Below, piece after piece: positions 2,969 to 50,717 of a stretch of 58,220 nt of DNA. Numbering within the stretch: the stretch's first letter is position 1; every line of letters begins with the position of its first letter. Both the position numbers and the translations under genes were made by a program. The stretch is from contig MHEE01000018.1 of NCBI GenBank assembly GCA_001805105.1, positions 1 through 58,220 on the forward strand, given 5' to 3'. The notes under the pieces are model-generated. The model saw only the letters and a list, made by a program, of their open reading frames with translations, was not told the origin of the DNA and did no database searches. Source of the DNA: Nitrospirae bacterium GWF2_44_13 (GTDB taxonomy: Bacteria > Nitrospirota > Thermodesulfovibrionia > Thermodesulfovibrionales > UBA1546).

Positions 2969-3176
2969 GATTAAAAAAAAATCTGTTCGCTGTTAGCCGT
3001 CCGCTGCGGGTAAATCGTTTTCTCATTTCAAGTGGGTAAATCTTCCCTTCCTTGATGGTCTATGACTCGTAGAGGAGGGAATTAAGGGGACAGTTACTCC
3101 TTATTATTTCTAAAACCCCTTGCATATTGGTTTGAGAAAGAGACGAAAAAATCCATATTGAAATTAAAAGAAAGAA

Positions 3177-3647
3177 TCATCCCTTTTCCCTCTTCTTTCT
3201 GATAAATACCAAAGCCAACAAAAGCAAAACAGCCAATATAATAAGAAGCAGGATGCAGTTAAACGGCAGTATGCTTTCTTCGTAAACAACGGTTTTATGG
3301 ACTTGTTCCTGTATGATTATTTTTTCGGGTTCGGCAGTTTCCGGCGCTTTGTTTTCTTCAGCAGGCAAAGCCTTGTTTATCTCATCCGGCTGTGCCGGCT
3401 CTGTCCGGTCTTTCGGAACGGCAGCGGGAGTTTGTTCAGGCCGGATTTGTTTAATTGGATTCCCTTTTTCATCAAGCCGAATCGGCTTCCAGTCTTTATC
3501 ATGCAGGTGATACTCGCCGGTTCTCAATTCCCATTCCGTGCAGTTCTTCCAGCACTTATGCCCGCCCCTGTAATCGGTCCTGCCCGGATGGGCATAGGAA
3601 GAAAATGGGAATAAAAGAAAGAAAATAATTATAACGATGTTTCTCAT
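3177..3647 (-). CDS. Secreted/anchored YHYH-motif protein of unknown function
   Basis: This 156-residue protein begins with a clear signal peptide (about residues 1-19, ending SSYA). The following HPGRTDYRGGHKC, the NC pair and GEYHLHD resemble small secreted proteins with a GRTD-GGH-C-NC-GEYHYH signature, sometimes called YHYH-domain proteins and suspected of binding metal through the His/Cys set. A long Pro/Glu/Ala/Lys-rich low-complexity stretch (about 60-120) leads to a C-terminal transmembrane helix (about 128-149) and a basic tail. The mature domain would sit outside the cytoplasmic membrane, tethered at its C terminus. No function can be assigned and neighbours give no clue. Confidence 0.7.
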   Translation of the reverse strand: MRNIVIIIFFLLFPFSSYAHPGRTDYRGGHKCWKNCTEWELRTGEYHLHDKDWKPIRLDEKGNPIKQIRPEQTPAAVPKDRTEPAQPDEINKALPAEENKAPETAEPEKIIIQEQVHKTVVYEESILPFNCILLLIILAVLLLLALVFIRKKREKG

Positions 3648-3768
3648 TTTCTAACAATTGCTGTCCCTATTTATTTCCTTCGTTGTTATCGTTGAATACT
3701 ATTTTCATGCCATTTGTGAGCCAAAGGCCTGTCTGTGTTTCATGCCAAAATTTTAGATGCTTCCAAAT

Positions 3769-5865
3769 CTATTTCTTGCTTGAAATAAATACGCCGTCCC
3801 AATCAGGAGGAGGCGGTGTTTGAATATATTCACGGCATCTTTCAGCATAAAGTTTTGCCACGGGGTCGCTGTATTCGCCTAAAAGCCCTGTAAAAATATC
3901 AAGCGCATTCTGAAAACCCTTTGCCCTGTAAACCTTCAGCGCCCCGGAAAATCCCTCGGCCAGCTTGACATTGCCGTCTGTAATTAACTCAAAAATCGCA
4001 ACGGGTTTTTCCTTTCCCACAACTCTCATAAGATCTATTTCCCTTAACATAAATTTGCCCTTTACCTTTGAAGCAGTAAACTCGCTCAGGATTATATGGG
4101 TGCCGTAATACTTGTTCTGCCCCTCAAGCCTTGAAGCCAGGTTTACCGTGTCGCCAATCGCCGTATAATCAAATCTCATATCCGCTCCCATATTGCCGAC
4201 AACAGCATATCCGGTATTTATGCCTATTCCTATATCAACAGGAGGAAGCCCTTTCTGTTTAAAACTGCTGTTTATTTCCTTCAATTTATCAATCATTTCT
4301 TTTGCTGTCCTGCATGCCTTTTCAGGGTGATCCGTTACATCCAGAGGTGCGTTATAAATTGCCATCACCGCGTCTCCGATATACTTATCCAACGTCCCTT
4401 TATTTTTCAGGACAACCTCTGTCATAGGGCCAAGATATTCGTTAAGGAGCGAGACAAGCACATCAGGAGCAAGCTTTTCCGAGATGCCCGTAAACCCTCT
4501 TATGTCTGAAAACAGAACCGTTATCTCTTTCTTTGCGCCTCCGAGCGCGAGCCTGTCAGGATTCTTTATTATCTCAGCAACAAGCTCTGGCGAAACATAA
4601 CTCGAAAACGCCTTTTTAAGGTAGCGGTTTTTTCTCTCCACCACAAGGTTCCTGTATGCCTCAGAGCTTATAAATGCCATCGCTGTTGAGGAAAGCGGGT
4701 ACAGCAAACTCATGTCTATGGAATAATTTCTGAACAACAGATAATTGAAAACAGCATATATGCCAGACACAAACATAAAAGCAACAAGCCCCAAAAAGCT
4801 GTTCCTCAATACGCCGAGAAGCAATGTAAGGATTACGGGGAATAACGCCAAACATAAAATCTCAATCGCAATTATCCTTCCATCCCTTAATATGAATCTG
4901 CCCTGAAGAGCATTGGACGCTACAGTTGCATGTATCTCAACTCCGGGGAATGCGGACTCAACAGGAGTTGCCCTCATGTCATAGATGCCGACCTCTGTCG
5001 CGCCCACAAATACAATGCTGTCCTTGAGTTCTTCTTTTTTGATCCTCTTTTTAATAACGTCAACTGCTGACAGCGTGGTGATAGTCCCGCCTTTGCCGTA
5101 GTAATTCACGGTAAGCCTTCCGCTTTCATCAGAAGGAATAGACATATCTCCAAGCCTGAGCAATGAAACGCCAAAAGGTTCCACTTCAAGCATGACCTCC
5201 TTGCCTGTGTAATGCCGCAAGGCCTTTAATGCCAGCGAGGGATAAATTTCTCCGTTATAAAGCATAAGAAGCGTGGATTTTCTTACAGGGCCGTCAGAAT
5301 CAGGGTCTGTATTGAAAAAGCCAAAATCCAGAGCGCCGCGTCCGAGCAAGGGGATATTTGTCTCCACAAAAGGACGCTGATATACTGGAACCTCAGTCAC
5401 ACCTTCTGCAATCTTCAGAAGCTTTATTTTTGAAGACTCTATCTGGGATATAGCCCTTGGGTTTGACTCTTCTTTTTCATCTCTGAAAAAATAACCGAGG
5501 ATTACACTGCCGTTTTTTTCTATGGCTTTGGAAAGGACTGCGTCTTCTCTGCCCTCCGAAGGTTCGGAGAAAACAATATCCAGCGCTGTTACCTTTACCC
5601 CGTATTCTTTCAAGCTATTCAGAAGCCCTGCAAACACAGACCTCTTCCAAGGCCATCTGCCGAGTTCATTGATACTCTTTGAATCTATGGCAACTATCAC
5701 AACCCTTTTGTCAGGCTGAATATTTTTCCGGATTTTAAATCTTGCGTCCTTGAGCTTCAGGTCTACCGCATCAAGGAAATGAAAATTCTGTCTGTAAATG
5801 AAAAAGGTCAGAACTGAAGCAAGAAGACCAATTACAATAAAGGTCAGCAGTTTGGAGTATTTCAT
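3769..5865 (-). CDS. CHASE2-domain adenylate/guanylate cyclase (class III)
   Basis: A 698-residue membrane receptor cyclase that would turn an extracytoplasmic signal into cAMP (or cGMP). After one N-terminal transmembrane helix (about 7-27) comes a CHASE2 sensor domain (about 30-330, with VVIVAIDSKS and FVGATEVGIYDMR), then three closely spaced membrane helices (about 333-400). The catalytic domain (about 445-620) has the metal-binding Asp in LFSDIRGFTG, the second in YIGDAVMAIYN, and the DTVNLASRLEGQN segment. A short TPR-like tail follows. The FecR/TPR gene lies upstream on the same strand 46 bp away and is probably co-transcribed. CHASE2 cyclases are often paired with FecR-like proteins, and the ligand is unknown. 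Confidence 0.93.
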   Translation of the reverse strand: MKYSKLLTFIVIGLLASVLTFFIYRQNFHFLDAVDLKLKDARFKIRKNIQPDKRVVIVAIDSKSINELGRWPWKRSVFAGLLNSLKEYGVKVTALDIVFSEPSEGREDAVLSKAIEKNGSVILGYFFRDEKEESNPRAISQIESSKIKLLKIAEGVTEVPVYQRPFVETNIPLLGRGALDFGFFNTDPDSDGPVRKSTLLMLYNGEIYPSLALKALRHYTGKEVMLEVEPFGVSLLRLGDMSIPSDESGRLTVNYYGKGGTITTLSAVDVIKKRIKKEELKDSIVFVGATEVGIYDMRATPVESAFPGVEIHATVASNALQGRFILRDGRIIAIEILCLALFPVILTLLLGVLRNSFLGLVAFMFVSGIYAVFNYLLFRNYSIDMSLLYPLSSTAMAFISSEAYRNLVVERKNRYLKKAFSSYVSPELVAEIIKNPDRLALGGAKKEITVLFSDIRGFTGISEKLAPDVLVSLLNEYLGPMTEVVLKNKGTLDKYIGDAVMAIYNAPLDVTDHPEKACRTAKEMIDKLKEINSSFKQKGLPPVDIGIGINTGYAVVGNMGADMRFDYTAIGDTVNLASRLEGQNKYYGTHIILSEFTASKVKGKFMLREIDLMRVVGKEKPVAIFELITDGNVKLAEGFSGALKVYRAKGFQNALDIFTGLLGEYSDPVAKLYAERCREYIQTPPPPDWDGVFISSKK

Positions 5866-5911
5866 AGTTGCCCCTTCTCCATGAGTCTAATACAAACCGA
5901 TTTCCTGCTTA

Positions 5912-6958
5912 TTAATCTTTAATTCTCTGGAGATAAGTCTCTACATTGCCTATATGTTTGCCGTTAGGGAATTCGCTTTTATACTGAAGCAGCCTTTCCT
6001 TGGCCCGTTTTGCAAATCCCATTTCATCAAGAAGTATGCCTGTAAGATAGAGCGCCGTCTCACGCTGCGGGCTTACCGGATATTCCTCAAGGATTAGCAA
6101 ATATTCTGCGAGCGCAGCCTCCTGATTTCTAAGGAACCTTGAATAAACAGCTCCCCTTTCAAGCCTGGCATCGCCTCTGATTTCGAGCTTATCGCTAAGG
6201 TCAAGAGCTATCTGAAAAACATAGAGCGCTTCTTCATATTTCCCCGAATCTGCAAGATAATGACCGTGCTGTATGTTCCATCTGGCTATAATATGAGGGA
6301 GATTTCCTGACGCCTCCCACTCTTCCGGCGGCTGGGCTGCCGTGATTTTCTCGAAGCCCTCCTTTGCGGTATATAAAGGCGTGTTCTGTTCAACATTTAC
6401 AGGGTCTGTAGGAGTTATCCCCCTTGTGTTCTGAACCATTGTATCAGCAGTCAGCGGTTTGTTTGAAGCCGAGTCGCCTCCAATCTCCGCAGTTCCTTCA
6501 TTGCCAAACAGCACGTTTGCATAACCCTGCGTCATCATCATAAATTCAGTCCCTTTGATGCCGGCAACTGCCGTGGGGCTTTTCACCTTGAAATTTGTCT
6601 GCTGTCCTGCAAGCCTTGTAACAGTAGCTCTGAGTTTGCCCTGATTTAATTTAAAGACACCTTCCTTTTTATCGGTTGAAACCAGAAACTTGTCTATTTC
6701 AAGTTCTGTGTTATTGGCGAGGGTAAAAGCGCTGCCGTCGGACAGAGACAGTTTGGCCCATCCATTTTTGCCGGTTTTTATCCAGTATCCTTCTTTAAAT
6801 TCCAAGCCTTCCTTTGCTTTTTTATAGGGCACATTGGCTTTGTCTCTCCAGGATACCTCACCGCTGAGCTTTGCAATTTTCCCCGCAGCAGCATACACAG
6901 TGGAAACGAACATAAAGAAACACACATGGACCAGAATCATTGTAAATATCTTTTTCAT
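5912..6958 (-). CDS. FecR-domain protein with C-terminal TPR-like repeats
   Basis: A 348-residue exported protein. I start it at the ATG at 6958 because a signal peptide begins there (MKKIFTMILVHVCFFMFVS...YAAA) and a G-rich Shine-Dalgarno precedes it. An in-frame start 99 bp upstream would bury the signal peptide. The FecR domain (about residues 28-165) contains GEVSWRD, GYWIKTGKNGWAKLSL and SPTAVAGIKGTEFMM, the last being the family hallmark. The C-terminal part (about 225-345) has TPR-like helices (YEEALYVFQIALDLSD and AALAEYLLILEEYP). FecR-fold proteins outside siderophore systems are thought to bind periplasmic partners or wall material. Here the likely partner is the adjacent CHASE2 cyclase (inference). 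Confidence 0.85.
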   Translation of the reverse strand: MKKIFTMILVHVCFFMFVSTVYAAAGKIAKLSGEVSWRDKANVPYKKAKEGLEFKEGYWIKTGKNGWAKLSLSDGSAFTLANNTELEIDKFLVSTDKKEGVFKLNQGKLRATVTRLAGQQTNFKVKSPTAVAGIKGTEFMMMTQGYANVLFGNEGTAEIGGDSASNKPLTADTMVQNTRGITPTDPVNVEQNTPLYTAKEGFEKITAAQPPEEWEASGNLPHIIARWNIQHGHYLADSGKYEEALYVFQIALDLSDKLEIRGDARLERGAVYSRFLRNQEAALAEYLLILEEYPVSPQRETALYLTGILLDEMGFAKRAKERLLQYKSEFPNGKHIGNVETYLQRIKD

Positions 6959-7138
6959 AACCGTCCCCCCTAAAAAGGTTTTCAGGCTGCAATCATTTTT
7001 TATCAGGGATTCCCCATACAAAGCATAGAGTCGCCCTCCAGTAAAAATTAATATCAAATATTGCCTTTACTGTCAAGGTAAAAATACCATGCCTGCACCC
7101 AAACCGCTTCTCAATATGCCCTGATGATATTTTTTCCC

Positions 7139-8251
7139 TTAACTATTAACTACGGAAAGAAGGTTCAGTTCTTCATAGATTTCTTCGGGCGTCATTATTG
7201 CGCCGCCCGTTCTTCCGTAAAAAAGAACTTCCGATTTGCCGTTAACGGCAAGCCTTACATCCTCAACCATCTGGCCTGCATTAAGTTCAATCGTGATAAA
7301 CCTCCTCTTGGGATTTGCAAGAGATGCAAGTTCCTTTTCAGGGAAAGGGAAAAGACTGATGGGACGGAAAAATCCTAATCTGGAACCTTCATTCCTCAAC
7401 TTCTTGACAGCAGAAAACGCTATGCGCGCTGCAGTTCCGAACGCAACAACTATTGTATCGGCGTCTTCTGTGCCGAACATCTCAAATCTCACTTCATCTT
7501 CTTTCATCTTCCTGTATTTTTCCTGAAGAATACTGTTTCTGAATTCAAGCTGGCCTTCGCCCATATAGAGGGACCTGATTACATTGGGCTCTCTCATGCA
7601 TGACCCCTCTCCTGATTTGATCACATTCGGGCTTCTCCCTCCGCACCCTGTCAGCGCCCATGTCTTTTCAGGAAGGCCGGGCATTATATAAGGCGTCTGA
7701 TAAAAAGGCTCCATCATCTGGCCCAGTATCCCGTCGCCGAGAATCATTGCAGGATTCCGGTATTCATCCGCCTTATCAAAGGCAAGCATGGTCAGATCCC
7801 AGAGTTCCTGAAGATTATAAGGAGCATATACAAGAAGTTTATAATCGCCGTGCCCGCCGCCTTTTACCGTCTGAAAATAATCCGCCTGGCTGCCTGATAT
7901 GTTTCCAAGTCCTGGCCCTCCCCTCTGCATATTTACAATCACAGAAGGAAGCTCTGCTCCGCACAGATAGGAAACAGTCTCCTGCATCAGGCTTATGCCG
8001 GGGCTGCTTGAGGATGTCATAGCCCTCGCGCCCGCAGCAGAGGCGCCGTACACCATATTTATTGCAGCTAATTCGCTTTCAGCCTGAATAAATACTCCGC
8101 CCTCATCTTCCATACGCCACGACATATATTCAGGGATTTCATTTTGCGGGGTTATAGGATAGCCTGCATAAAAACGGCAGCCTGCCTTAATCGCCGCCTC
8201 TGCAATGACCTCATTGCCCCTCATGAAAATCTTTTTAGCCATCAAAAACAT
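7139..8251 (-). CDS. vorB: 2-oxoacid:ferredoxin oxidoreductase alpha subunit (VorB/KorA type), orphan
   Basis: Encodes the pyrimidine/core-binding alpha subunit of a 2-oxoacid:ferredoxin oxidoreductase (3-methyl-2-oxobutanoate or 2-oxoglutarate type). The complex oxidatively decarboxylates a 2-oxoacid to acyl-CoA and reduces ferredoxin. The N-terminal RGNEVIAEAAIKAGCRFYAG and GYPITPQNEIPEYM, the SSSSPGISLMQE loop and the C-terminal transketolase-like domain II (FRPISLFPFPEKEL) are all typical. Length (370 residues, or 367 from the internal MAKK) is full. The usual beta (TPP-binding), gamma and delta subunits are not next to it: it is flanked by an unrelated FecR gene and divergent glyQ. Substrate specificity cannot be read from the sequence. 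Confidence 0.88.
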   Translation of the reverse strand: MFLMAKKIFMRGNEVIAEAAIKAGCRFYAGYPITPQNEIPEYMSWRMEDEGGVFIQAESELAAINMVYGASAAGARAMTSSSSPGISLMQETVSYLCGAELPSVIVNMQRGGPGLGNISGSQADYFQTVKGGGHGDYKLLVYAPYNLQELWDLTMLAFDKADEYRNPAMILGDGILGQMMEPFYQTPYIMPGLPEKTWALTGCGGRSPNVIKSGEGSCMREPNVIRSLYMGEGQLEFRNSILQEKYRKMKEDEVRFEMFGTEDADTIVVAFGTAARIAFSAVKKLRNEGSRLGFFRPISLFPFPEKELASLANPKRRFITIELNAGQMVEDVRLAVNGKSEVLFYGRTGGAIMTPEEIYEELNLLSVVNS

Positions 8252-8317
8252 TATATCACATTTGACAAAACTCTTACCCTTACATTATGATTTTTTCACA
8301 ATGCCGGGGAGACGTTA

Positions 8318-9193
8318 ATGTATTTTCAAGAACTGATTTTAAAGCTTCATGAATTCTGGTCAAGGCAGGGCTGTGTCCTGCTCCAGCCTTATGACATTGA
8401 AGTCGGCGCAGGGACCTTCCATCCTGCAACCTTCTTCAAAGTCCTTGGGCCCGAGCCGTGGAAAACAGCTTATGTCGAACCTTCAAGAAGGCCTACAGAC
8501 GGCAGATACGGCGAGAACCCGAACAGGCTTCAGCATTATTACCAGTATCAGGTAGTCCTTAAGCCCTCGCCAAGTGAAAGTCAGGAAATTTATCTTGAAA
8601 GCCTCACATATCTCGGCATAGAGCCTCAAAAACATGACATACGCTTTGTGGAAGATGACTGGGAATCCCCGACACTCGGCGCATGGGGGCTCGGGTGGGA
8701 GGTCTGGCTGGACGGGATGGAGATAACCCAGTTCACATATTTCCAGCAGGTTGGAAGCATTGACCTAAAGCCTGTGTCGCTTGAGATAACATACGGGCTT
8801 GAAAGAATTGCCATGTACCTTCAGAACGTAGACAATGTATTCAACCTTGAGTGGTCACATGGCATAAAATACGGCGACATTCACCATATTGATGAAGTAG
8901 AATTTTCAAAATATAATTTTGACCATGCAGACACGGAACTTCTCATAAAGCAATTTGAAGCTTATGAAAAAGAATCCATAAGGCTAAATAAACTCGGACT
9001 CGTTCTTCCGTCATACGAGTTCTGCCTTAAGTGTTCTCACACGTTCAATCTTCTGGACGCCAGGGGAGCTATCTCTGTAACAGAGAGGACAGGCTATATT
9101 GCGCGGGTGCGTAACCTTGCAAGGCTGTGCGCGCATGCGTATCTAAAACAGAGAGAAGAAATGGGCTTCCCGCTGCTGAAGAGTTCAATTTAA
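8318..9193 (+). CDS. glyQ: Glycyl-tRNA synthetase alpha subunit
   Basis: The alpha subunit of the heterotetrameric bacterial GlyRS (alpha2beta2) holds the class II aminoacylation site that joins glycine to tRNA-Gly. The 291-residue length is standard. Motifs include [20 protein letters not shown] near the N terminus, [20 protein letters not shown] (motif 2 region) and [16 protein letters not shown] (motif 3). It is normally followed directly by glyS. Here glyS lies about 3.6 kb downstream, beyond several accessory genes. Confidence 0.97.
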
Positions 9194-9228
9194 CAAGCCA
9201 AAATTGTCCGGATGCTTAGTGATTTTTC

Positions 9229-9263
9229 TTGACGAAACCTGCGATTTCTCCTAAAATCATCCC
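9229..9263 (+). promoter_or_regulatory. Strong sigma70-type promoter of the TIR-SI3 gene
   Basis: TTGACG at 9229-9234 and TAAAAT at 9252-9257 are separated by exactly 17 bp, which is near consensus. Transcription would start at about 9263, giving a leader of about 75 nt with GGAGG at 9324-9328 in front of the ATG at 9339. The gene therefore does not depend on glyQ read-through. Confidence 0.75.
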
Positions 9264-9338
9264 AAAAGACTCATGCGACATAAAAATAATATGTTAAGCC
9301 AAATATGACACACACGCAAGAACGGAGGCAAACGGCGG

Positions 9339-10580
9339 ATGTTAGTTTTTCTAAGTTGGTCGGGACCAAAGAGTAAAATAATAGCTGAAACGCTGAAGCA
9401 GTGGCTTGTTCAGGTAATTCAGGCAGTTGATCCTTGGATGTCCTCTGATATAGCGAAGGGTAGCCGTTGGAATTCTGAAGTCGCCGCAAAACTCGAAGAC
9501 TCAAAGTTTGCCATCATCTGCCTCACCCGCGAAAACTTAGATGCACGATGGATACTATTTGAAGCAGGTGCCGTTTCCAAACTTAATGATTCCTCAGTTT
9601 GCACTTTTTTACTTGATATTACACCCGCCGAGGTGGAACAACCGTTGAGCCAGTTTCAGCATACTACAATTGAAAAAAGCGATTTCCGTAAACTAGCGCA
9701 TACGATTAATGATGCTGTTTTGCGTGCAGGTGAGAGAAGTCTTCCGGCACAAACGTTGGATGGTATTTTTGAAACCTTCTGGCCACAGTTGCAAGAGGCG
9801 TTGGTAGATATTAGTGAAATGCAATACGCAGAAGAACGGAAGCCACGAACTGACCGGGCAATCCTTGAGGAAATTGTTGAAATACTTAGGAATCAGGAGC
9901 GTAGACAAAGTGGTAAGACAGAAGAAGTCCATCTCCGGCCTTCTGACAATACACAGGCTTTCCCCGGAAAAGACATCATCAAAGCGTGGCTAACAATGAG
10001 ATTACACGCATTTGAGACGGCAATCTTTGCCGGACATCTTCGATATATGCTGTTCGATATGAAAAAAAAGAAATATGTCTTTGATAAATCTCTTGCAATT
10101 AGGAACAGGGAAGGTATCTGGGTTGTAAACAGACGGCACGCACAGATAGCCATTATCGATGACGCAGGCAAGGTTTTAGAGGAGATTCGAGTTGGCTATG
10201 GAGATAGGATTATGCTTCCTGACGGTAGTGCTGCAGCCGCCAACCAAAAACTCATCCAGAGAGATCCTCTTTCAACACCGATAATAACGGAGGTTGGCGG
10301 AAAAGTTGCCTTTGGTGATTTGATCGAAAATGTTAGTTTCGTAGAAGAGGTGGACACATTTACAGGACAAAAATTCAAAGTCATAATCGATTGGCCGAGC
10401 AGTCTCAGACCCCGTATCGCATTAAAAGACAATAAAGGGCGAACAGTGAAACTGCCGGGAACAGATTATCCAGCCCGTTATCTTCTTCCCGCTGGCACCA
10501 TTATATTAGTTGAAAAGGGGGATGATTTAGTCGCTGGCGATGTATTGGGAAGGATTCCGATTGAAATCACTGCGGCTTAA
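9339..10580 (+). CDS. TIR-domain protein fused to an RNA polymerase beta-prime SI3-like domain
   Basis: I know no described family with this architecture. Residues about 1-150 are a bacterial TIR domain: MLVFLSWSG (strand A), SSDIAKGSRWNSEVAAKLED, FAIICLTREN, and ARWILFEAGA, where E75 is the expected NADase catalytic glutamate. Residues about 160-190 are a helical linker. Residues about 246-409 align along their length with residues 947-1111 of the beta-prime subunit at 46602-50717, with roughly 70 identities over 160 columns by hand and one gap. Shared strings include TPIITEVGG, AFGD, VIID, RPRI and ARYLLPAG. In beta-prime this region is SI3, the sandwich-barrel-hybrid insertion in the trigger loop. 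The copy stops just before the conserved ITGGLPRV trigger helix. Own promoter, Shine-Dalgarno and terminator make it a single-gene cassette. A defence role is inference: TIR domains of immune systems hydrolyse NAD+ on sensing infection, and SI3 could be the sensor. Confidence 0.9.
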   Translation: MLVFLSWSGPKSKIIAETLKQWLVQVIQAVDPWMSSDIAKGSRWNSEVAAKLEDSKFAIICLTRENLDARWILFEAGAVSKLNDSSVCTFLLDITPAEVEQPLSQFQHTTIEKSDFRKLAHTINDAVLRAGERSLPAQTLDGIFETFWPQLQEALVDISEMQYAEERKPRTDRAILEEIVEILRNQERRQSGKTEEVHLRPSDNTQAFPGKDIIKAWLTMRLHAFETAIFAGHLRYMLFDMKKKKYVFDKSLAIRNREGIWVVNRRHAQIAIIDDAGKVLEEIRVGYGDRIMLPDGSAAAANQKLIQRDPLSTPIITEVGGKVAFGDLIENVSFVEEVDTFTGQKFKVIIDWPSSLRPRIALKDNKGRTVKLPGTDYPARYLLPAGTIILVEKGDDLVAGDVLGRIPIEITAA

Positions 10581-10593
10581 CACCCGGCTCGAT

Positions 10594-10622
10594 CCGACCG
10601 GGATTAAGCCCGGTCGGTTTTT
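10594..10622 (+). terminator. Intrinsic terminator after the TIR-SI3 gene
   Basis: A perfect 9-bp GC-rich stem (CCGACCGGG at 10594-10602, CCCGGTCGG at 10609-10617) with a 6-nt loop is followed by TTTTT. It lies 13 bp after the stop codon. Confidence 0.9.
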
Positions 10623-10804
10623 GCAAAGGCTGGTTGCCCGCGCGGGGTATTTCGGGCATTGATATAATTAAGATTGCGGCATGAGGGAATTGGTGTTCAC
10701 TGTTGACATCCTGCCTCATAGCATATTTGTGTTTTGACTTTTTACTCTAAAATATTTAAAAATATACACACATGCTTTAATAAAAAAATGCGAGGTGAAA
10801 ATAT

Positions 10805-11017
10805 ATGGTATTACAACTCGACCAAATGACAACAAGGGATAAAATTCGGGCTATGGAATTATTGTGGGATGATTTATGTAAACATGCAAATGCAGTCGCT
10901 TCACCATCATGGCATAAAGATATTTTAGCTCAGCGTGAAAAATCTGTGGCCAAGGGCAAAGAAAAATTTAATGATTGGGACGGAGAAAAAGAAAGAATTA
11001 GAAAATCCTGCAAATGA
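10805..11017 (+). CDS. Antitoxin, addiction-module component family
   Basis: This 70-residue acidic/basic protein resembles the small family often annotated as putative addiction module component. TTRDKIRAMELLWDDLCK is an N-terminal amphipathic helix, and the SPSWHKDILAQREKSVAKGK and FNDWDGEKERIRK segments are the recurring C-terminal motif that wraps the cognate toxin. A GAGGTG Shine-Dalgarno sits 7 nt before the ATG. The stop overlaps the toxin start (ATGA), so translation is coupled. Upstream, a TTGAC hexamer at 10734-10739 with an AT-rich region behind it could be its promoter. It should neutralise the ParE/RelE-type toxin encoded next. Confidence 0.85.
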   Translation: MVLQLDQMTTRDKIRAMELLWDDLCKHANAVASPSWHKDILAQREKSVAKGKEKFNDWDGEKERIRKSCK

Positions 11018-11304
11018 AAATTCGTATTCTTGAATCCGCGTCGCAAGACTTGATAGATGGATTTCATTTCTATGATAAACAATCAGTCGGCCTCGGGAGT
11101 TATTTTATAGACGCTCTATTTTCTGACATTGATTCCTTACAAATTTACGCCGGAATCCATTCCATATACTTCGGTTATCATCGCATGCTTTCAAAACGTT
11201 TTCCGTTTGCCATCTATTATAAATTATCTGATACTGAAGCATTGGTTTATGCGATTCTTGATTGTCGTAGAAATCCTGTCTGGATAAAAAAACAATTAAG
11301 ATAA
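11014..11304 (+). CDS. Toxin, RelE/ParE superfamily
   Basis: This 96-residue protein has the RelE/ParE fold signature: an N-terminal strand (MKIRILESASQDLID), a helical hairpin (FHFYDKQSVGLGSYFIDALFSDI), and C-terminal strands with RFPFAIYYKL and VYAILDCRRNPVWIKK. The last of these matches the usual ILHxxRxP.xW ending of the family. ParE members poison gyrase and RelE members cleave mRNA on the ribosome; which applies is not readable here. It overlaps the antitoxin by 4 bp. The pair lies in the accessory stretch between glyQ and glyS. Confidence 0.88.
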   Translation: MKIRILESASQDLIDGFHFYDKQSVGLGSYFIDALFSDIDSLQIYAGIHSIYFGYHRMLSKRFPFAIYYKLSDTEALVYAILDCRRNPVWIKKQLR

Positions 11305-11448
11305 TTTTAACAAAGCGCTGCGCTGAACGGCGAGTATGCCGCCAGTGAGCTTTAGCGGTTAGACTATGAGTGAGACCGCGCGGTACGCTTCCCTCACATT
11401 TTCCATTACTTAATCTAAAACCTTTAAGCGAACCCGCACATATACGCA

Positions 11449-12663
11449 CTACCACTCAATTTTCTGCGTCTTTAAAAAATTCTGAGCCGACTTGTCTCCT
11501 AACCTTGCAGCTTTCCTGATGTCTTCCACTGCCTTGTAAGTGTCGCCGAGCAGCCCATATACCCTGCCCCTGTTGAAATAAGCCTCAGAATCGCCGGGAT
11601 TCAGCTCCACAGCCTTGTTAAAATCCTCAAGCGCCTTGTGATAATTTCCCGATTCGGCATAAGCAAGCCCCCTGTAAAAATAAGCCTTCTCATATTCGGG
11701 ATTTATCTTTATTGCATGGCTGAAATCTTCAAGCGCCTGCTGCTCTTTTCCCAGCGCTCCATAGGCAACTCCGCGATAGCAATAAGCCTCTTCATGTTTG
11801 GGACTCAATTTTACAGCCATGGAGTAGTCCTTAACAGCCTGCTGATAACTGCCTGACCTTAGATGGGCATTTCCGCGGGAAACATAAGCCTTAGCATATT
11901 TAGGATTTAGCTTTATAGCCTTTGTAATGTCCCTAACAGCATATTGATTGTTGCCGGCTTCCCCATAGGCATTCCCTCTAAAGACATAAAACTTCTCATT
12001 ATTAGGATTTAATTTTATGGCCTTTGTAAACGCCTCTACTGCTTTCTGCGGGTTGCCGGAATTCACAAGCACACACCCATTTTCAAACCAGTCAATTGCG
12101 CCTAAAATCTTTACTGCCTCATTATACTGTCCTACTGTCTTTCCACCTGCATTGCCTGCTTCCTGCCGTTCTTTTAATTTTTCAATTCTTCTTAAAAACC
12201 CTGATGCTTTCTTCCTTACCTCTTCTATCTCTCTTATATATCCCTTATTCCTATTGAGAACGGCAATAGACTTAACTATTTCATCAGGATTAACAGAAAC
12301 CCCTGCTTTAACATAAAAGGTATTCTTATCCCATTTCTGTTCTATCACCTCAGTCTTTACAATTACCGAGATAAGAGCCGTAGCCTGATTTTTAGTGAGT
12401 TGAAGGTTTTTTATCACTGCCTTGCTCTCAAGATACGCTTCTACTTCCCCGAATAAAAGCCGCTTCGCATTCTCCATGGCAATTACACGGGCAGAACCCT
12501 TGTTGTCAAGCTCTCCTGCCTGATAGGTATATTCCTTCTGGAAAGAAACCGTTTCAGCAAAAGCAGTCCCTGCCGTCAGAAATGTAAAAGCAATGAGCAT
12601 CAGGATAAAGGCCCTCTTTATAGAAATGCCACAAAGAACCTGCCAGTTGAAGATTTTTTTCAT
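11449..12663 (-). CDS. Exported TPR-repeat protein with FlgT/LPP20-like N-terminal domain
   Basis: I place the start at the ATG at 12663 (404 residues). An in-frame ATG 24 bp upstream is possible. A signal peptide ends GTAFA before ETVSF. The N-terminal domain (about residues 35-150) has SARVIAMENAKRLLFGEVEAYLES and a following strand region, reminiscent of the SARVxAxxNA motif of LPP20/FlgT-like outer-membrane-associated domains. A basic coiled segment (about 140-170) leads to about five TPR units, each with an A-x4-TKAIKLNP-like core (AVEAFTKAIKLNP, AVKDYSMAVKLSP, ALEDFSHAIKINP, ALEDFNKAVELNP). It is probably a periplasmic or outer-membrane scaffold. The gene runs opposite to its neighbours and has no evident link to glycyl-tRNA synthesis. 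Confidence 0.82.
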   Translation of the reverse strand: MKKIFNWQVLCGISIKRAFILMLIAFTFLTAGTAFAETVSFQKEYTYQAGELDNKGSARVIAMENAKRLLFGEVEAYLESKAVIKNLQLTKNQATALISVIVKTEVIEQKWDKNTFYVKAGVSVNPDEIVKSIAVLNRNKGYIREIEEVRKKASGFLRRIEKLKERQEAGNAGGKTVGQYNEAVKILGAIDWFENGCVLVNSGNPQKAVEAFTKAIKLNPNNEKFYVFRGNAYGEAGNNQYAVRDITKAIKLNPKYAKAYVSRGNAHLRSGSYQQAVKDYSMAVKLSPKHEEAYCYRGVAYGALGKEQQALEDFSHAIKINPEYEKAYFYRGLAYAESGNYHKALEDFNKAVELNPGDSEAYFNRGRVYGLLGDTYKAVEDIRKAARLGDKSAQNFLKTQKIEW

Positions 12664-12727
12664 ATTTGAATACCCATGCTCCGTCATTGCTAATGCTTCA
12701 TAGACAATCTATCAGACCATGCTTCTC

Positions 12728-12763
12728 TTGTCAATAATCTCTCATAAGGTTATAATGTTCTCA
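12728..12763 (+). promoter_or_regulatory. Near-consensus sigma70 promoter of glyS
   Basis: TTGTCA at 12728-12733, a 17-bp spacer and a perfect TATAAT at 12751-12756 predict transcription from about 12763. This lies 22 bp before the chosen glyS ATG and downstream of the first in-frame ATG at 12719, which supports the later start. It shows glyS has its own promoter after separation from glyQ. Confidence 0.78.
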
Positions 12764-12784
12764 AAAAAACAGAGGGAATATTTA

Positions 12785-14863
12785 ATGACAAGAAATGAGA
12801 CCCTGAGCTCATCGCTGCTTTTAGAAATAGGCACAGAAGACATCCCTGCAAGGTTTCTGCCCTCTGCCATACGGCAATTAAAGGAGAATACAGAGACGAT
12901 ATTCAAAGAGAATCATATAAGGTTCTCAGAAGTAAAAACATTGGGCTCTCCGCGAAGACTCGCAGTGATTGCAAACGGAATCCCGCCGATGCAGGAAGAC
13001 AGAACAAAAGAAATATTCGGGCCTTCCAAAAAAGCGGCTTTTGATGCTGACGGCAGGCATACAAAGGCAGCAACAGGATTTGCCAACTCTCAGGGCATAA
13101 GAGTGGAAAAGCTTGTTGTAAAAAAGAAAGATAAAGGAGAATATGTTGTTGCAGTCATAGAAGAAAAAGGCATTTTTGTCAGAGAACTCCTGCCTGACAT
13201 ACTCAAAAAAATTGTGCTTTCAGTGCATCTTCCGAAATCAATGAGATGGGGCGGCAATGACATGAGATTTATACGGCCTATCAGATGGCTGCTGTCTCTG
13301 TTTGATAACGAAACAATAAGTTTTGAGATAGAAGGAATAAAAAGCAGCAATATGACCCGCGGGCACAGATTCCTATCGCCTGCCGCTTTTCAGATAAAAG
13401 AAATACCGGCTTACACAAAATTGCTTGCAAATAACCATGTGATAGTTGACCCCCAGGAAAGGAAAAAGATTATAACAGAAAAAGCTGAGAAGCTCTCATC
13501 TTCCATAAATGGGAAAATCATCAAAGATGAAGAACTCATTGAGACTGTCTCAAATCTCGTAGAATATCCAGTTCCTGTGTTGGGCAGCTTTTCAGAAGAA
13601 TATCTTAAACTTCCAAAGGAACTGCTTATAACGGTAATGAGAGAACATCAGAAATACTTTGCAATTGAAGATATTAAAGGCGTGCTTACGAATTACTTTA
13701 TCATTATAAGCAACACCACTGAAGAAAACTCTGAGACTGTCAAGATTGGAGCGGAACGTGTTATCAGGGCCAGATTTGAGGATGCAAAATTCTATTTTGA
13801 AGAAGACTGCAGGAAAAAACTTGAAGACAGAATAAACGGCCTTAAAAATGTGGTGTATCAGGAAAAACTCGGGAACCTCTACGAGAAAGCATTGAGGGTC
13901 AAAACCCTTGCGTCATATCTTGCGTCAAAAATAAATGCCTCTCTAACGCAAAAGGCCGAAAGAGCAGCGCTTCTCTCCAAAACAGACCTCCTGACAGGAG
14001 TCGTAAGGGAATTCCCAGAACTTCAGGGAATTATTGGGAAATACTATGCGGGCAATGACAAGGAAGACACAGAAGTCGCAGCCGCTTTGATGGAACAGTA
14101 TCTGCCCGCATATCAAGGCGGCAGAATGCCTGAAACAGAGACAGGCGCTATTCTCAGCCTTGCAGACAAACTGGATAATATAACCTCATTCTTCTCTGTC
14201 GGACTTACGCCGACAGGCTCGGAAGACCCTTTTGCATTAAGGAGACAGACGCTTGCAGTCATAGCAATACTGCTGAACAATGGCTATGCATTATCGCTCA
14301 ACGATCTTGTTGCTGCTTCTCTGAAAAATCTAAAAGATACTAAGCAATCGGGAGAAATTGCAGAAACAGTGCTCAGATTTTTTGAACAGAGGCTTGAGCC
14401 TTTGTTTTTATCAGAAGGGCATGGTTCCGATATAATCCAATCTGTACTCCATCTCTCTGCAGAAATCCCGTTAAAAGAAATGCGAAGAAGGCTTCAGGCT
14501 GTTAAGGAATTTAAGGAAACAGAGGACTACAGTAATTTTCTCAGTGCCATAAAAAGGGTGAAAAATATTACCCCCGCCACTGCGCTTCCTTCGTTAAAGG
14601 TGAAACTGCTCCATGCAGATCCGGAGAAAAAACTCTACGAGATATTCACCTCGATAAAAACCAAACTCGGAAGCCTGATAGATGGACACAAATATTCCGA
14701 AGCGCTGAGAATTCTTTCGGGATTGACTGCGCCGATAAACCATTTTTTCGATAATGTACTTGTAATGGACAAACAGGAAGAAATCAAACTCAACAGGCTT
14801 GCGCTGCTGAAAGATATCTGGACACTCGCATCATCAATAGCGGATTTTTCAAAACTGCAGTAA
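12785..14863 (+). CDS. glyS: Glycyl-tRNA synthetase beta subunit
   Basis: The beta subunit of alpha2beta2 GlyRS binds tRNA-Gly and completes the enzyme with GlyQ. Starting at ATG 12785 (GAGGG Shine-Dalgarno 8 nt upstream) gives 692 residues, the family norm. An upstream ATG at 12719 precedes the promoter and is rejected. The N terminus LLLEIGTEDIPARFLPSAI is diagnostic, as are SPRRLAVIANGIP, MRWGGNDMRFIRPIRWLLSL and the mid-protein GIIGKYYA and LADKLDNITSFF segments (HD-type region). A DALR-like anticodon-binding domain ends the protein (LLHADPEKKLYEIFTSIK onwards). Confidence 0.96.
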   Translation: MTRNETLSSSLLLEIGTEDIPARFLPSAIRQLKENTETIFKENHIRFSEVKTLGSPRRLAVIANGIPPMQEDRTKEIFGPSKKAAFDADGRHTKAATGFANSQGIRVEKLVVKKKDKGEYVVAVIEEKGIFVRELLPDILKKIVLSVHLPKSMRWGGNDMRFIRPIRWLLSLFDNETISFEIEGIKSSNMTRGHRFLSPAAFQIKEIPAYTKLLANNHVIVDPQERKKIITEKAEKLSSSINGKIIKDEELIETVSNLVEYPVPVLGSFSEEYLKLPKELLITVMREHQKYFAIEDIKGVLTNYFIIISNTTEENSETVKIGAERVIRARFEDAKFYFEEDCRKKLEDRINGLKNVVYQEKLGNLYEKALRVKTLASYLASKINASLTQKAERAALLSKTDLLTGVVREFPELQGIIGKYYAGNDKEDTEVAAALMEQYLPAYQGGRMPETETGAILSLADKLDNITSFFSVGLTPTGSEDPFALRRQTLAVIAILLNNGYALSLNDLVAASLKNLKDTKQSGEIAETVLRFFEQRLEPLFLSEGHGSDIIQSVLHLSAEIPLKEMRRRLQAVKEFKETEDYSNFLSAIKRVKNITPATALPSLKVKLLHADPEKKLYEIFTSIKTKLGSLIDGHKYSEALRILSGLTAPINHFFDNVLVMDKQEEIKLNRLALLKDIWTLASSIADFSKLQ

Positions 14864-14879
14864 AGATTTACCGATAATT

Positions 14880-14903
14880 ATTCCCTGAACAGCAGGAATT
14901 TTT
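14880..14903 (+). terminator. Probable weak terminator after glyS
   Basis: ATTCCCTG (14880-14887) pairs with CAGGAAT (14893-14899) with one bulged C and is followed by a T run. It lies between the convergent glyS and yedF genes. Confidence 0.45.
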
Positions 14904-14912
14904 AGCATTAAA

Positions 14913-15515
14913 TCATATCCAAACAACTTTCTGAAAGTCCTTAATCCCCTCTACAATATGATTTGTGGTGCCGCGGTATCCAACCTTCAATTCCGATTCA
15001 ATATCATAGTATTTCAGGCATGTGCCGCATGAAAATATCTCAACTCCCATTCCTTCGATTTCCTTGAGTATTGGAATAACATCTTCATTGCCGGTGGTCA
15101 ATTTCACTCCCGCATTTAAAAAAAATATTGTGTGAGGAATTTCTTTAGTTGCCTTCATTGTCTCAAAAAAACCCTTGATTAATACCTTGCCAAGCGATTC
15201 CTCTTTTCCCATCGTATCTGTACCGATGATAAGCAGGAGATCTTTCTTTTTTTCTTCTGACTCTAAACTCTGACCCTCAAACCCTGCACTCTCTTTCTCG
15301 CACGAATGACCCTTCACTATTTTTACACGCCAGCAGCCATCTTGTTTTTCTACCTCGGAGTAACAACCGCTTTTGGCTGCAAATCTTGAAAGATTCTCTA
15401 CGGAAGCCTCATTGTCAACAAGTACCTCAACAATACCTTCCTGGATTATAGAAAGGGCTTCTTCCGCCATCATGAGAGGCTTCGGGCATCCAAGGCCTCT
15501 CGCATCTATGAGCAT
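14913..15515 (-). CDS. yedF: YedF: TusA-DsrE fusion, sulfurtransferase-like selenium-metabolism protein
   Basis: A 200-residue two-domain protein of the YedF family, which co-occurs with selenium-utilisation genes. Residues 1-70 are a TusA-like domain (MLIDARGLGCPKPLMMAEEA) with the conserved Cys at position 10. A polar linker (about 70-90) connects to a DsrE/DsrF-like domain (about 92-200) with LLIIGTDTMGKE, HTIFFLNAGVKL and the SCGTCLKYYD cysteine pair. Proteins of this type are thought to carry sulfur or selenium as persulfide/perselenide. AAAGGAG precedes the ATG. It is the next gene downstream of the selenocysteine-type tRNA on the same strand, 80 bp away, and the LysR gene further upstream is also of a selenium-associated type. 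Confidence 0.9.
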   Translation of the reverse strand: MLIDARGLGCPKPLMMAEEALSIIQEGIVEVLVDNEASVENLSRFAAKSGCYSEVEKQDGCWRVKIVKGHSCEKESAGFEGQSLESEEKKKDLLLIIGTDTMGKEESLGKVLIKGFFETMKATKEIPHTIFFLNAGVKLTTGNEDVIPILKEIEGMGVEIFSCGTCLKYYDIESELKVGYRGTTNHIVEGIKDFQKVVWI

Positions 15516-46601: not shown

Positions 46602-49600
46602 TTATTCTTCCGGAGGAGCAGGTTCTGCAGATGCAAACATCTGCTGTATTTCCCTCTTCACAAATGTGTTCCGGTATTTTGCTATACCTGTACCCGCAGG
46701 AATAACTCTCCCCATTATCACATTTTCCTTCAGTCCCCTGAGTTCATCAACAGAGCCGTTTATGGCAGCCTCTGTAAGAACCCTTGTGGTTTCCTGGAAG
46801 GATGCCGCAGATACAAAACTCTCTGTTGCAAGAGACGCCTTGGTTATGCCTAAAAGCAATGGCTTGCCCTGCGCAGGCTTTTTGCCTTTTCCTTTTATCT
46901 TTGCATTTTCCGCCTGAAACGCCACCCTGTCCACCTGTTCTCCTATCAATAAGTTTGTATCTCCGGAGTCCTCAATCCTTACTTTCTTCATCATCTGCCT
47001 GACGATAACCTCAATGTGTTTATCGTTTATAGAAACGCCCTGCAGACGATAAACCTTCTGAACCTCATCAACAAGATATCTCTGAAGTTCCCTGGGTCCC
47101 AGAATATCAAGTATGCTGTGCGGATTTACCGCTCCATCCATTAACGGCTCGCCTGCCTTGACCCAGTCTCCTTCATGGACGCTGACATGTTTGCCCTTTG
47201 GTATGAGGTATTCTCTTGATTCGCTGCTTCCCTTAACTACAACAACCCTCATGCCTTTATGCGCGCCCTTGAATTCCACCATGCCGTCAATCTCCGTAAC
47301 AATGGCCTGCTCTTTGGGCCGCCTTGCCTCAAACAGTTCCGCAACCCTCGGAAGGCCGCCTGTTATATCCTTTGTCTTTGTGGTTTCACGAGGCATCTTC
47401 GCAAGGATATCGCCCGGAGCAACAATCTGGTTTCTGTCAACGAGTATATGCGCTCCTGCCGGCAGCAGATACCGCGCAAGGTTGCCTGTCGAAGGAATCT
47501 TGAGCGTTACCTTGCCATGCTCATCCTTTATTGATATCCTGGGCCTCATGTTGGTGGGATAATCAATAATAACCCTATGGGAAAGGCCTGTCATCTCATC
47601 CACTTCTTCCTTGATAGTCACGTTCTCAGCAATATCGCCAAAGGCTATTCTTCCACCTACTTCTGTCAGTATCGGAGTTGAATAAGGATCCCATTCAACC
47701 AGCCTCTGTCCGATTTCCACCTTCTGCCCGTTGCCGACAAGAAGCTTTGCTCCATAGACGATAGGGTATTTCTCTTTTTCCCTTCCCTTTGAATCTACAA
47801 CAGCAATGCTTCCGTTTCTATTCGTCACAACCAGCAAAACTTCCCTGTTTTTAACAGTGCTGATATTTACGAACTTTATAGTCCCTGAGTTCTTTGCCTC
47901 AAGCACCGTCTGCTCAACGACCTTTGAGGCTGCGCCGCCTATATGGAAAGTCCTCATTGTCAGCTGGGTGCCCGGTTCGCCTATGGACTGGGCTGCTATG
48001 ACCCCTACTGCTTCTCCGAGTTCAACATGCCCGCCCCTTGCAAGGTCTCTTCCATAACATGCCGCGCAAGCGCCAAACATAGACTGGCAGGTAAGAACAG
48101 ACCGTATCTTTGCCCTGTCTATTCCGGCGTCTATTATTTTTTGGGTCAGTTCTTCATCTATCGGACTATTTTTGCCTGCAATTTTCTCTTTTGATATCGG
48201 GTCTTTTATGTCTTCGGCAATTGTCCTTCCCAATATCCTTTCTTCCAGAGGCTGAATGATTTCGCCGCCCTCTATAAGGGAAGTAACAATTATCCCGTCA
48301 CTGGTGCCGCAATCCTCCTCCATTATAATTACATCCTGTGCAACATCAACCAGCCTCCTCGTAAGGTACCCTGAGTTAGCTGTTTTCAAAGCTGTGTCAG
48401 CAAGGCCTTTCCTTGCGCCATGCGTAGAGATGAAGTACTGCAGCGGGGTGAGGCCTTCCCTGAAGTTTGCAGTAATCGGCGTTTCAATAATCTCGCCTGA
48501 AGGCTTCGCCATAAGGCCTCTCATGCCCGCAAGCTGCCTTATCTGCGCCGTGCTTCCCCTTGCCCCTGAATCAGCCATCATAAAGATGCTGTTAAACGAC
48601 CTTCTTTCCTGCAGGTCTTCCTCTGAAAATTTCTTGCCGTCTTCTGCGCCGAGTTCCTTCATCATCTCATCAGCTATTTTCTCCGTGACATTGGCCCAGA
48701 TATCTATTACCTTATTGTACCGCTCGCCCTGCGTGATAAGACCGTCCCCGTACTGTTTCTGCACGTCAATGACTTCATGCTCGGCTTCTCTTATCATCTC
48801 TGCCTTCTTGGATGGTATATGCATATCCGCCATGCATATGGACACCCCTGATTTTGTGGCATATTCAAATCCGAGTTTCTCAATCTTATCAAGGAACACA
48901 ACCGTTGCCCTCTTGCCGGCATTCGCATAGGAGTATTCTATTATCTTTGTGAGTTCCTTCTTGGTAAGCGTCTTGTTAACAGAAGAAAACGGAATCGCCT
49001 TCGGAACTATCTCGCTGAACAGCGCCCTTCCGCATGTGCTGTCAACAAACTGGCCCTCTATCTTCACCTTTATCCTTGCATGTTCATCGAGGACTCCTGC
49101 GTCATAAGCAATTCTAACGTCCTCTGCCCCGGAAAACACCTTGCCCTCGCCTTTTGCGCCTGTCTTCTCTTTCGTCAGATAATATATTCCTAGAACCATG
49201 TCCTGCGTAGGCACAAGTATCGGTTTTCCGTTTGCAGGCGAAAGGATATTATTAACAGCCATCATCAGAACCCGCGCCTCTATCTGGGCTTCTATTGACA
49301 ATGGCACATGAACTGCCATCTGGTCACCGTCAAAATCAGCGTTGAACGCGGTACATACCAGGGGATGAAGCTTTATTGCCTTTCCTTCAACAAGTATGGG
49401 ATCAAATGCCTGGATACCAAGCCTGTGAAGGGTAGGCGCGCGGTTTAAAAGCACAGGATGTTCTCTGATAACCTCTTCCAGCGCATCCCATACTTCAGGC
49501 TGTTCTTTTTCAACAAGTTTTTTTGCAGCCTTTATTGTGGTAGCAAAACCCTTCTCCTCAAGCCTGCTGAACACAAGCGGCTTGAAGAGTTCCAGCGCCA

Positions 49601-50717
49601 TCTTCTTTGGAAGGCCGCACTGGTGAAGCCTGAGTTCAGGGCCTACTACGATAACAGACCTGCCCGAATAGTCAACGCGCTTTCCTAAAAGATTCTGGCG
49701 GAAACGTCCCTGCTTTCCTTTTATCATGTCACTCAGAGACTTCAACGGCCTCTTCGTTGCCGTCTTCAATACACGGCCTCTTCTGCCGTTATCAAACAAG
49801 GCGTCAACCGCTTCCTGAAGCATCCTTTTCTCATTCTTTATGATTACGCTTGGAGCCTTTAATTCCATCAGCCTCTTTAATCTGTTATTTCTGTTTATTA
49901 CCCTTCTGTAAAGGTCATTCAGGTCTGATGTCGCAAACCTTCCGCCTTCAAGCGGCACCAAGGGCCTGAGGTCAGGCGGCAGAACCGGTATTACATCCAT
50001 TATCATCCACTCCGGCTTGTTCCCTGAATTCTTGAAAGACTCGACAACCTTGAGCCTCTTCGTGAGTTTCTTTTTAACGCCAAGTGATACTGCATCTCGT
50101 ATCTTATTCTTCAGTTCTTTGCTTAGAACATCAAGGTCAACTCTCCTGAGAAGTTCCCTTATTGCTTCAGCGCCCATTCCTGCTTTGAAACTGGCGCCAA
50201 GCTCCGCGCTCTTTTTCTTATATTCGTCTTCTGTGAGAAGTTCTTCCGCTTTAAGTTTTGTATCCCCGCGGTCAATAACAACATAACTTTCAAAATACAG
50301 CACCTTTTCAAGGTGCCGCATTGTCATGTCAAGCAATGTGCCTATTCTGCTCGGCACGCCTTTGAGGAACCAGATATGCGCAACCGGCGTTGAAAGTTCA
50401 ATATGCCCCAGCCTGTATCTTCTGACCTTGGACTGTATTACCTCAACTCCGCACTTATCGCATACAACGCCCCTGTGTTTCATTCTCTTGTATTTTCCGC
50501 ATATGCACTCCCAGTCCTTCATCGGGCCGAAGATTTTTGCACAGAAAAGGCCGTCGCGCTCAGGCTTGAACGTACGATAGTTTATCGTCTCAGGTTTCTT
50601 AACCTCTCCGTAAGACCACTCCCTTATTTTTTCAGGCGAGGCAATTTTAACTCTCAGAGCCTCAAAGTCGGTCGGATTTTTCGGCCTTTGAAAAATAGTA
50701 TAGGTTTCCTCTGCCAA
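46602..50717 (-). CDS. rpoC: DNA-directed RNA polymerase beta-prime subunit with SI3
   Basis: This 1371-residue catalytic subunit carries the N-terminal zinc site ([20 protein letters not shown]), the Mg-binding [12 protein letters not shown] loop, the second zinc region ([15 protein letters not shown]), the trigger helix [14 protein letters not shown] and [19 protein letters not shown]. Between the last two, residues about 946-1111 (plus-strand 47385-47882) form the SI3 sandwich-barrel insertion. A homologous copy of that segment is fused to a TIR domain at 9339-10580 in this window. The start lies 1 bp after the rpoB stop. Last gene of the ribosomal protein/RNA polymerase operon. Confidence 0.98.

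Follow-up and report, generated by a model that had tools for sequence, protein, structure and literature searches.

Bacteria are already known to use TIR-domain defences, and phages to make proteins directed against RNA polymerase. In plants, NLR immune receptors with integrated decoys carry a copy of the pathogen's target. Among described bacterial TIR proteins, SpbK is an NADase whose fused domain lets the portal protein of a phage switch it on (PMC12847820). A three-gene locus of phage AC1, when cloned, acts against lambda, LF82_P8 and P2-like relatives (PMC9122126). The SI3 domain of the polymerase beta-prime subunit (RpoC) lies exposed at the surface and is itself exploited by mobile elements. 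The T7 kinase Gp0.7 phosphorylates T1068 inside SI3 (PMC2939025, PMC5569994), and TraR, which has relatives in phages and plasmids, contacts SI3 (PMC6970531).

In the open-licence literature, no description was found of an immune protein bearing a copied polymerase domain, nor of a TIR-SI3 or polymerase-decoy system. This agrees with a first-pass annotation of the locus considered here, which knew of no described system with such a fusion. The parts are of known kinds, a TIR effector and an SI3, and it is their joint architecture that is apparently undescribed.

The TIR-SI3 gene

The window, meaning the whole 58,220-nucleotide stretch of DNA that was analysed, contains one gene that joins a TIR domain to an SI3. 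The features needed below are as follows.

9229..9257, + strand: sigma-70-type promoter match TTGACG-17-TAAAAT (consensus match; element conserved)
9324..9328, + strand: GGAGG, likely ribosome-binding site (sequence)
9339..10580, + strand: TIR-SI3 fusion gene, 413 aa (open reading frame, Pfam, PADLOC and similarity to RpoC)
9339..9788, + strand: TIR domain, about aa 1-150, with the invariant E75 (Pfam TIR_2, fold matches, invariant residues)
9789..10028, + strand: helical linker, about aa 151-230 (the stretch to about 190 is common to the whole TIR family; aa 192-208 are of low confidence)
10029..10577, + strand: complete RpoC SI3 domain, aa 231-413 (structural match to 4iqz_C and sequence matches)
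10594..10617, + strand: intrinsic-terminator-like hairpin of 9 pairs, then TTTTT (consensus match)
10805-11017, + strand: antitoxin-like gene (Unstab_antitox, E 1e-11; not part of the fusion)
11014-11304, + strand: likely partner of the antitoxin-like gene (no Pfam match; not part of the fusion)
46602..50717, - strand: host rpoC, encoding the native SI3-bearing beta-prime subunit (open reading frame and similarity)
47379..47867, - strand: native SI3 inside rpoC (45% identical to the fused SI3)

The open reading frame at 9339-10580 (+) is whole, so the earlier description of an intact 413-codon gene stands. The earlier placing of rpoC at 46602-50717 also holds, with the correction that the gene lies on the minus strand. 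With its GGAGG, promoter match and terminator-like hairpin, the TIR-SI3 gene looks like a single-gene unit. The promoter and the terminator are consensus matches only, and counts of such matches in the region are near those of shuffles.

The TIR half and its relatives

The N-terminal TIR domain proposed in the first-pass annotation is borne out. Pfam TIR_2 matches aa 3-112 (E 1.7e-8) and the PADLOC TIR-TM profile (PDLC03016) matches aa 1-188 (E 1.2e-63). A model of the TIR alone (pLDDT 89.3) has the fold of TIR NADases, with Z scores of 13.6 against SPARTA, 12.7 against SpbK, 12.7 against SARM1 and 11.0 against ThsB. The residue put forward earlier as catalytic, E75, lies within WILFEAGA and is invariant across 42 aligned relatives, as are W71, F74, G77 and A78. 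The protein thus carries the conserved glutamate of catalytic type, and it is predicted to have NADase activity.

Prophage and viral contigs commonly carry relatives of this TIR, at about 35-48% identity. They keep the TIR and the helix (residues 1-190 of the TIR-SI3 protein) to about residue 190 and then continue into differing, mostly short tails. Prophages carry the family as lone or accessory genes. For example, the relative in phage mEp390 is a lone gene between the Q and holin genes. The AC1 TIR protein is a member of the same family. Pfam recognises almost nothing in the other C-termini, apart from weak, mostly helix-turn-helix matches in single members, and the idea that these tails are recognisable host mimics too was therefore rejected. 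An SI3 among the C-termini of the family was found only in the fusion clade.

The SI3 half

The first-pass annotation had reported that the C-terminal domain is homologous to part of RpoC, and the relationship is clear. Residues 250-411 are 45% identical to this genome's RpoC (E 3.5e-44), and E. coli SI3 (2auk) is matched by the C-terminus with E 2e-25. Structure prediction, which had been suggested as a check, also recovers the SI3 fold. The full model was made with AlphaFold2 from aligned sequences of fusions, TIRs and SI3s and has a mean pLDDT of 84.9; its pTM of 0.47 makes the mutual placement of the domains uncertain, as are residues of about 192-208. Within this model, aa 231-408 have the two-SBHM fold: 164 residues align with the crystal structure of E. 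coli SI3 (4iqz_C), with a Z score of 20.7 and a deviation of 1.5 A. Their structural counterpart in whole polymerases is beta-prime 955-1126. The SI3 in the fusion is therefore whole and domain-exact. It makes up the C-terminal part of a TIR protein of 413 aa and does not lie in a trigger loop inside beta-prime, and other parts of RpoC are absent from the protein.

How much of the RpoC surface has been kept? One measure is the set of 73 SI3 columns whose conservation in RpoC reaches 90% or more. Of these, 47, 48 and 54 are retained in the three fusions, and the RpoCs of E. coli, Shinella and Legionella keep 44, 42 and 39. All fusions differ from RpoC at several otherwise conserved positions (e.g., W308R and A289D), and given these changes some SI3 contacts may have been lost. 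The loop bearing T1068, the Gp0.7 target, is absent from the SI3 copy and also from the aligned Nitrospirota RpoCs. A direct carry-over of the T7 Gp0.7 story was rejected because this loop is missing.

These counts bear on the proposal that the SI3 is a structural or oligomerisation module, or binds something other than polymerase, its origin in RpoC being incidental. The unrelated C-termini of other family members fit that proposal, as they suggest that the domain needs no specific function, and so do the altered positions. However, the fusions retain as many of the conserved columns as do the SI3s of RpoCs from other phyla, and an oligomeriser needs no such conservation. An incidental SI3 is accordingly judged unlikely.

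Distribution and origin

Kinship places the window in Nitrospirota, and probably in Thermodesulfovibrionia. Searches with the TIR and linker were run across the phylum (396 genomes), across the order (176 genomes) and, with strict patterns, in a contig collection. The fusion was found in three genomes, and none was detected beyond these in the same searches. Its occurrence is sporadic, with two of the 176 order genomes and one genome of another class. Besides the present genome, G342 (JAMCVZ010000005.1, Nitrospirae FK_Sedi_B_Bin.71) has an intact fusion of 413 aa that is 77% identical. The third genome, G095 (MHEL01000040.1, Nitrospirae RBG_19FT_COMBO_42_15), has a fusion that is frameshifted at the TIR end and shortened in the SI3. 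The second genome that the first-pass annotation had wanted to see therefore exists. No conserved partner gene was found beside the fusion in G342 or G095. In plasmid and phage collections no match spans both TIR and SI3, and viral-contig relatives align with the TIR and linker only.

The SI3s of the three fusions form one clade (support 100/99) relative to 29 RpoC SI3s, and the clade persists when proteobacterial outgroups are added (100/96). Most simply, then, the fusion would have formed once. The first-pass annotation had taken the domain for a copy of the SI3 in this genome's RpoC. It is better seen as an old offshoot, because it belongs to a clade of its own and the RpoC SI3s of several other families are closer to it (up to about 54% identity) than is that of this genome. 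For the same reasons, recent copying from the host rpoC was rejected.

Another question is whether both halves are maintained. In the comparison of this genome with G342, the TIR has a dN/dS of 0.12 by YN00 (0.09 by NG86), the linker one of 0.10 (0.14) and the SI3 one of 0.14 (0.16). As judged from these substitution ratios, purifying selection acts on both halves. The SI3 has nevertheless changed about twice as fast as the TIR (dN 0.171 vs 0.084).

Could the gene be an assembly artefact or a decaying chimera of a TIR gene and an rpoC fragment? The frameshifted, shortened copy in G095 is what such an origin might leave behind. However, a homologue of the same length is intact in an independent genome, dN/dS is low in both halves and the SI3 clade stands apart from all host rpoC genes. 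This possibility is refuted for this window and can practically be dismissed overall. An artefact or pseudogene was rejected for the same reasons, and the assembly error that the first-pass annotation had named as fatal to its reading is thereby excluded.

The same pair of genomes carries a sign of movement. Synonymous divergence (dS, NG86) is 3.8 for the host rpoC, a saturated value, against 1.0 for the fusion, although for the SI3 part of rpoC taken by itself it is 1.3. In G342 the GC content of the fusion is 43%, against 54% for rpoC. These contrasts make horizontal transfer of the fusion between families likely, though not proven.

A scan of the 396 genomes for SI3 alone gave, among the matches listed, RpoC frames and the fusions; the list may lack weaker matches. 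A closer look at genomes with two SI3 matches brought up a free-standing SI3-like protein of 180 aa with its own ATG at L145:4539-5081 (+) (G164:C20). It is 34-40% identical to RpoC SI3s, its genome is rated 100% complete and no relatives were found in its family except RpoC and the fusion. Weaker SI3 matches occur in G368, G362 and G405. Several order genomes have a second full-length RpoC (L146:1876-5904, +; L147:2593-6582, -; L148:2556-6491, +). These are 45-49% identical to the host RpoC and have intact NADFDGD and trigger-loop motifs. In L146 and L147 the second rpoC is preceded by ParB-like and Replic_Relax-like genes and has no adjoining rpoB, so this solo beta-prime is possibly a mobile cassette.

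Two further frames are unusual. An SI3 match at G275:C141:3979-4512 (-) lies within an open frame of 2748 aa, which suggests a natural RpoB-RpoC fusion in the phylum. A match at G350:C121:4360-4971 (-) is in two pieces in a 1451-aa frame, which suggests an insertion inside the SI3 of that RpoC. Some plasmid and phage collection records (H6, H7, H20, H36, H37) resemble bacterial chromosomes or host contigs, one example being a 2.2 Mb Neisseria 'plasmid'. Matches to rpoC in such records are therefore not evidence of mobile rpoC.

Genomic site

The TIR-SI3 gene sits in the gap between glyQ and glyS, with glyQ upstream and the antitoxin-like pair downstream. The cargo of this gap varies among congeners, which differ in genes of restriction-modification, toxin-antitoxin and transposase types. 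In G001 it holds conserved genes only; in G003 a cytosine methyltransferase, one unidentified ORF and a Vsr endonuclease; in G005 IS200-type transposases, an antitoxin and HepT-like genes; and in G007 an HNH-repeat protein and a nucleotidyltransferase. The variable site spans 9194-12718 of the window and was compared across L101-L107. A near-identical promoter-like element of about 60-70 bp (window 9219-9286, L106:1909-1967, L102:5177-5244) recurs in three species, each time before a different cargo gene, and holds the sigma-70-type promoter match. No membrane-protein genes adjoin the TIR-SI3 gene, and no ThsA-like Pfam match was obtained among the flanking genes scanned (1322 to 15515).

The neighbourhood raises the prospect of a TIR enzyme that works outside phage defence, in a stress response, plasmid exclusion or a transcription-linked function resembling toxin-antitoxin. 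TIR enzymes are not all defence proteins, and the antitoxin-like pair (10805..11304), which is present in G005 too, lies close by. However, neither G342 nor G095 offers a conserved partner, prophages carry members of the family either alone or as accessory genes, and one member belongs to a locus with proven action against phages. A role of this kind is therefore thought decidedly improbable. In contrast, a defence role is well supported by the homology to the AC1 TIR, the variable-cargo site and the likely horizontal spread of the fusion.

A candidate decoy for polymerase-directed phage factors

That a TIR effector and an SI3 are joined in one protein is fully supported. What the SI3 does there is a more tentative matter. 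The preferred reading, to which a probability of about 0.48 is given, is that TIR-SI3 is a single-gene abortive-infection protein in which the SI3 serves as an integrated decoy for polymerase-directed phage factors. At the same odds, a surface domain of RNA polymerase would have been lifted whole into a TIR effector, giving a bacterial immune receptor with an integrated decoy.

The proposed course of events is as follows. The N-terminal TIR would be an NAD+-consuming effector that is presumably inactive at rest. The C-terminal SI3 would be the sensor, displaying a decoy of the beta-prime surface. The trigger would come from a phage or plasmid, as a factor able to bind or modify SI3, perhaps a TraR/DksA-like protein, a kinase or another appropriator of polymerase. 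Engagement of the SI3 copy would cause TIR domains to cluster or be released, NAD+ would be destroyed and the infection would stop.

One clue in favour is that relatives keep the TIR and helix and swap the C-terminus, which is where a sensor is expected. Since this exchangeable C-terminus has acquired exactly an SI3, the domain is best read as bait. Further points in favour are that polymerase-directed factors such as Gp0.7 and TraR already act on SI3, that the copy is domain-exact and constrained, and that SpbK sets an example of a TIR NADase switched on through a fused domain. Against the decoy are the absence of the Gp0.7 target loop, the alteration of positions conserved in RpoC (W308R and A289D among them) and the fact that the AC1 TIR acts alongside membrane proteins encoded in its locus, whereas TIR-SI3 has none beside it.

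Perhaps the copy guards rather than baits. It could tether the TIR to RNA polymerase or to a host factor whose normal partner is SI3, and the TIR would fire once host transcription has been shut off or the complex remodelled. Native SI3 does pack against the shelf and jaw of beta-prime and make contact with TraR, and many defence systems sense host transcription shut-off. However, native SI3 holds its own docking site in cis, and a copy acting in trans must compete for it. Guarding is thus considered rather unlikely.

Only once demonstrated would the integrated decoy count as a sensing principle new to bacteria. If it is true, TIR-SI3 would be the bacterial counterpart of the plant integrated decoys and a ready-made bait for phage factors that target SI3, so that SI3 as a phage target would become directly testable. 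A phage protein that had evolved to seize polymerase by its SI3 would also spring the trap.

Comparison with known systems

The AC1 TIR (PADLOC TIR-TM, PDLC03016; PMC9122126) resembles TIR-SI3 in the TIR and helical linker, with about 42% identity, and this part of an AC1-type TIR-TM locus is homologous. The resemblance stops there. The TIR-TM match in TIR-SI3 ends at aa 188, at profile position 193 of 293, and so does not take in the C-terminus of the model, whereas AC1 itself matches 1-295. The AC1 TIR keeps the family's own C-terminus, where TIR-SI3 has the SI3. The AC1 TIR also has two membrane-protein genes beside it, whose products have strongly hydrophobic segments, whereas TIR-SI3 is without an adjacent membrane partner. 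An AC1-type three-gene system was rejected because the membrane partner is absent and the C-terminus replaced. Thoeris shares TIR enzymes (ThsB) with TIR-SI3 but needs ThsA, and it was rejected because the scanned flanking genes include no ThsA. CapRel unites effector and sensor in one protein, and phage proteins trigger it directly, but it has no TIR (PMC11578894). Neither CapRel nor Thoeris bears a host polymerase domain.

The RpoC SI3 (beta-prime i6) of E. coli and Nitrospirota has the same fold as the fused SI3 and clear sequence homology to it. The fused SI3 differs in being off the trigger loop, joined to a TIR and in a clade separate from the sampled RpoC SI3s. Plant NLR integrated decoys would work alike, although they are not a homologous system and the decoy role in TIR-SI3 is putative.

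SpbK of Bacillus subtilis is the closest mechanistic precedent for TIR-SI3. In both, one polypeptide combines a TIR NADase with a sensing domain, as predicted in the case of TIR-SI3, and the TIR folds are similar (Z 12.7, 19% identity). However, SpbK has its sensing domain at the N-terminus, where it binds the portal protein of a phage (PMC12847820); this domain is not copied from the host polymerase.
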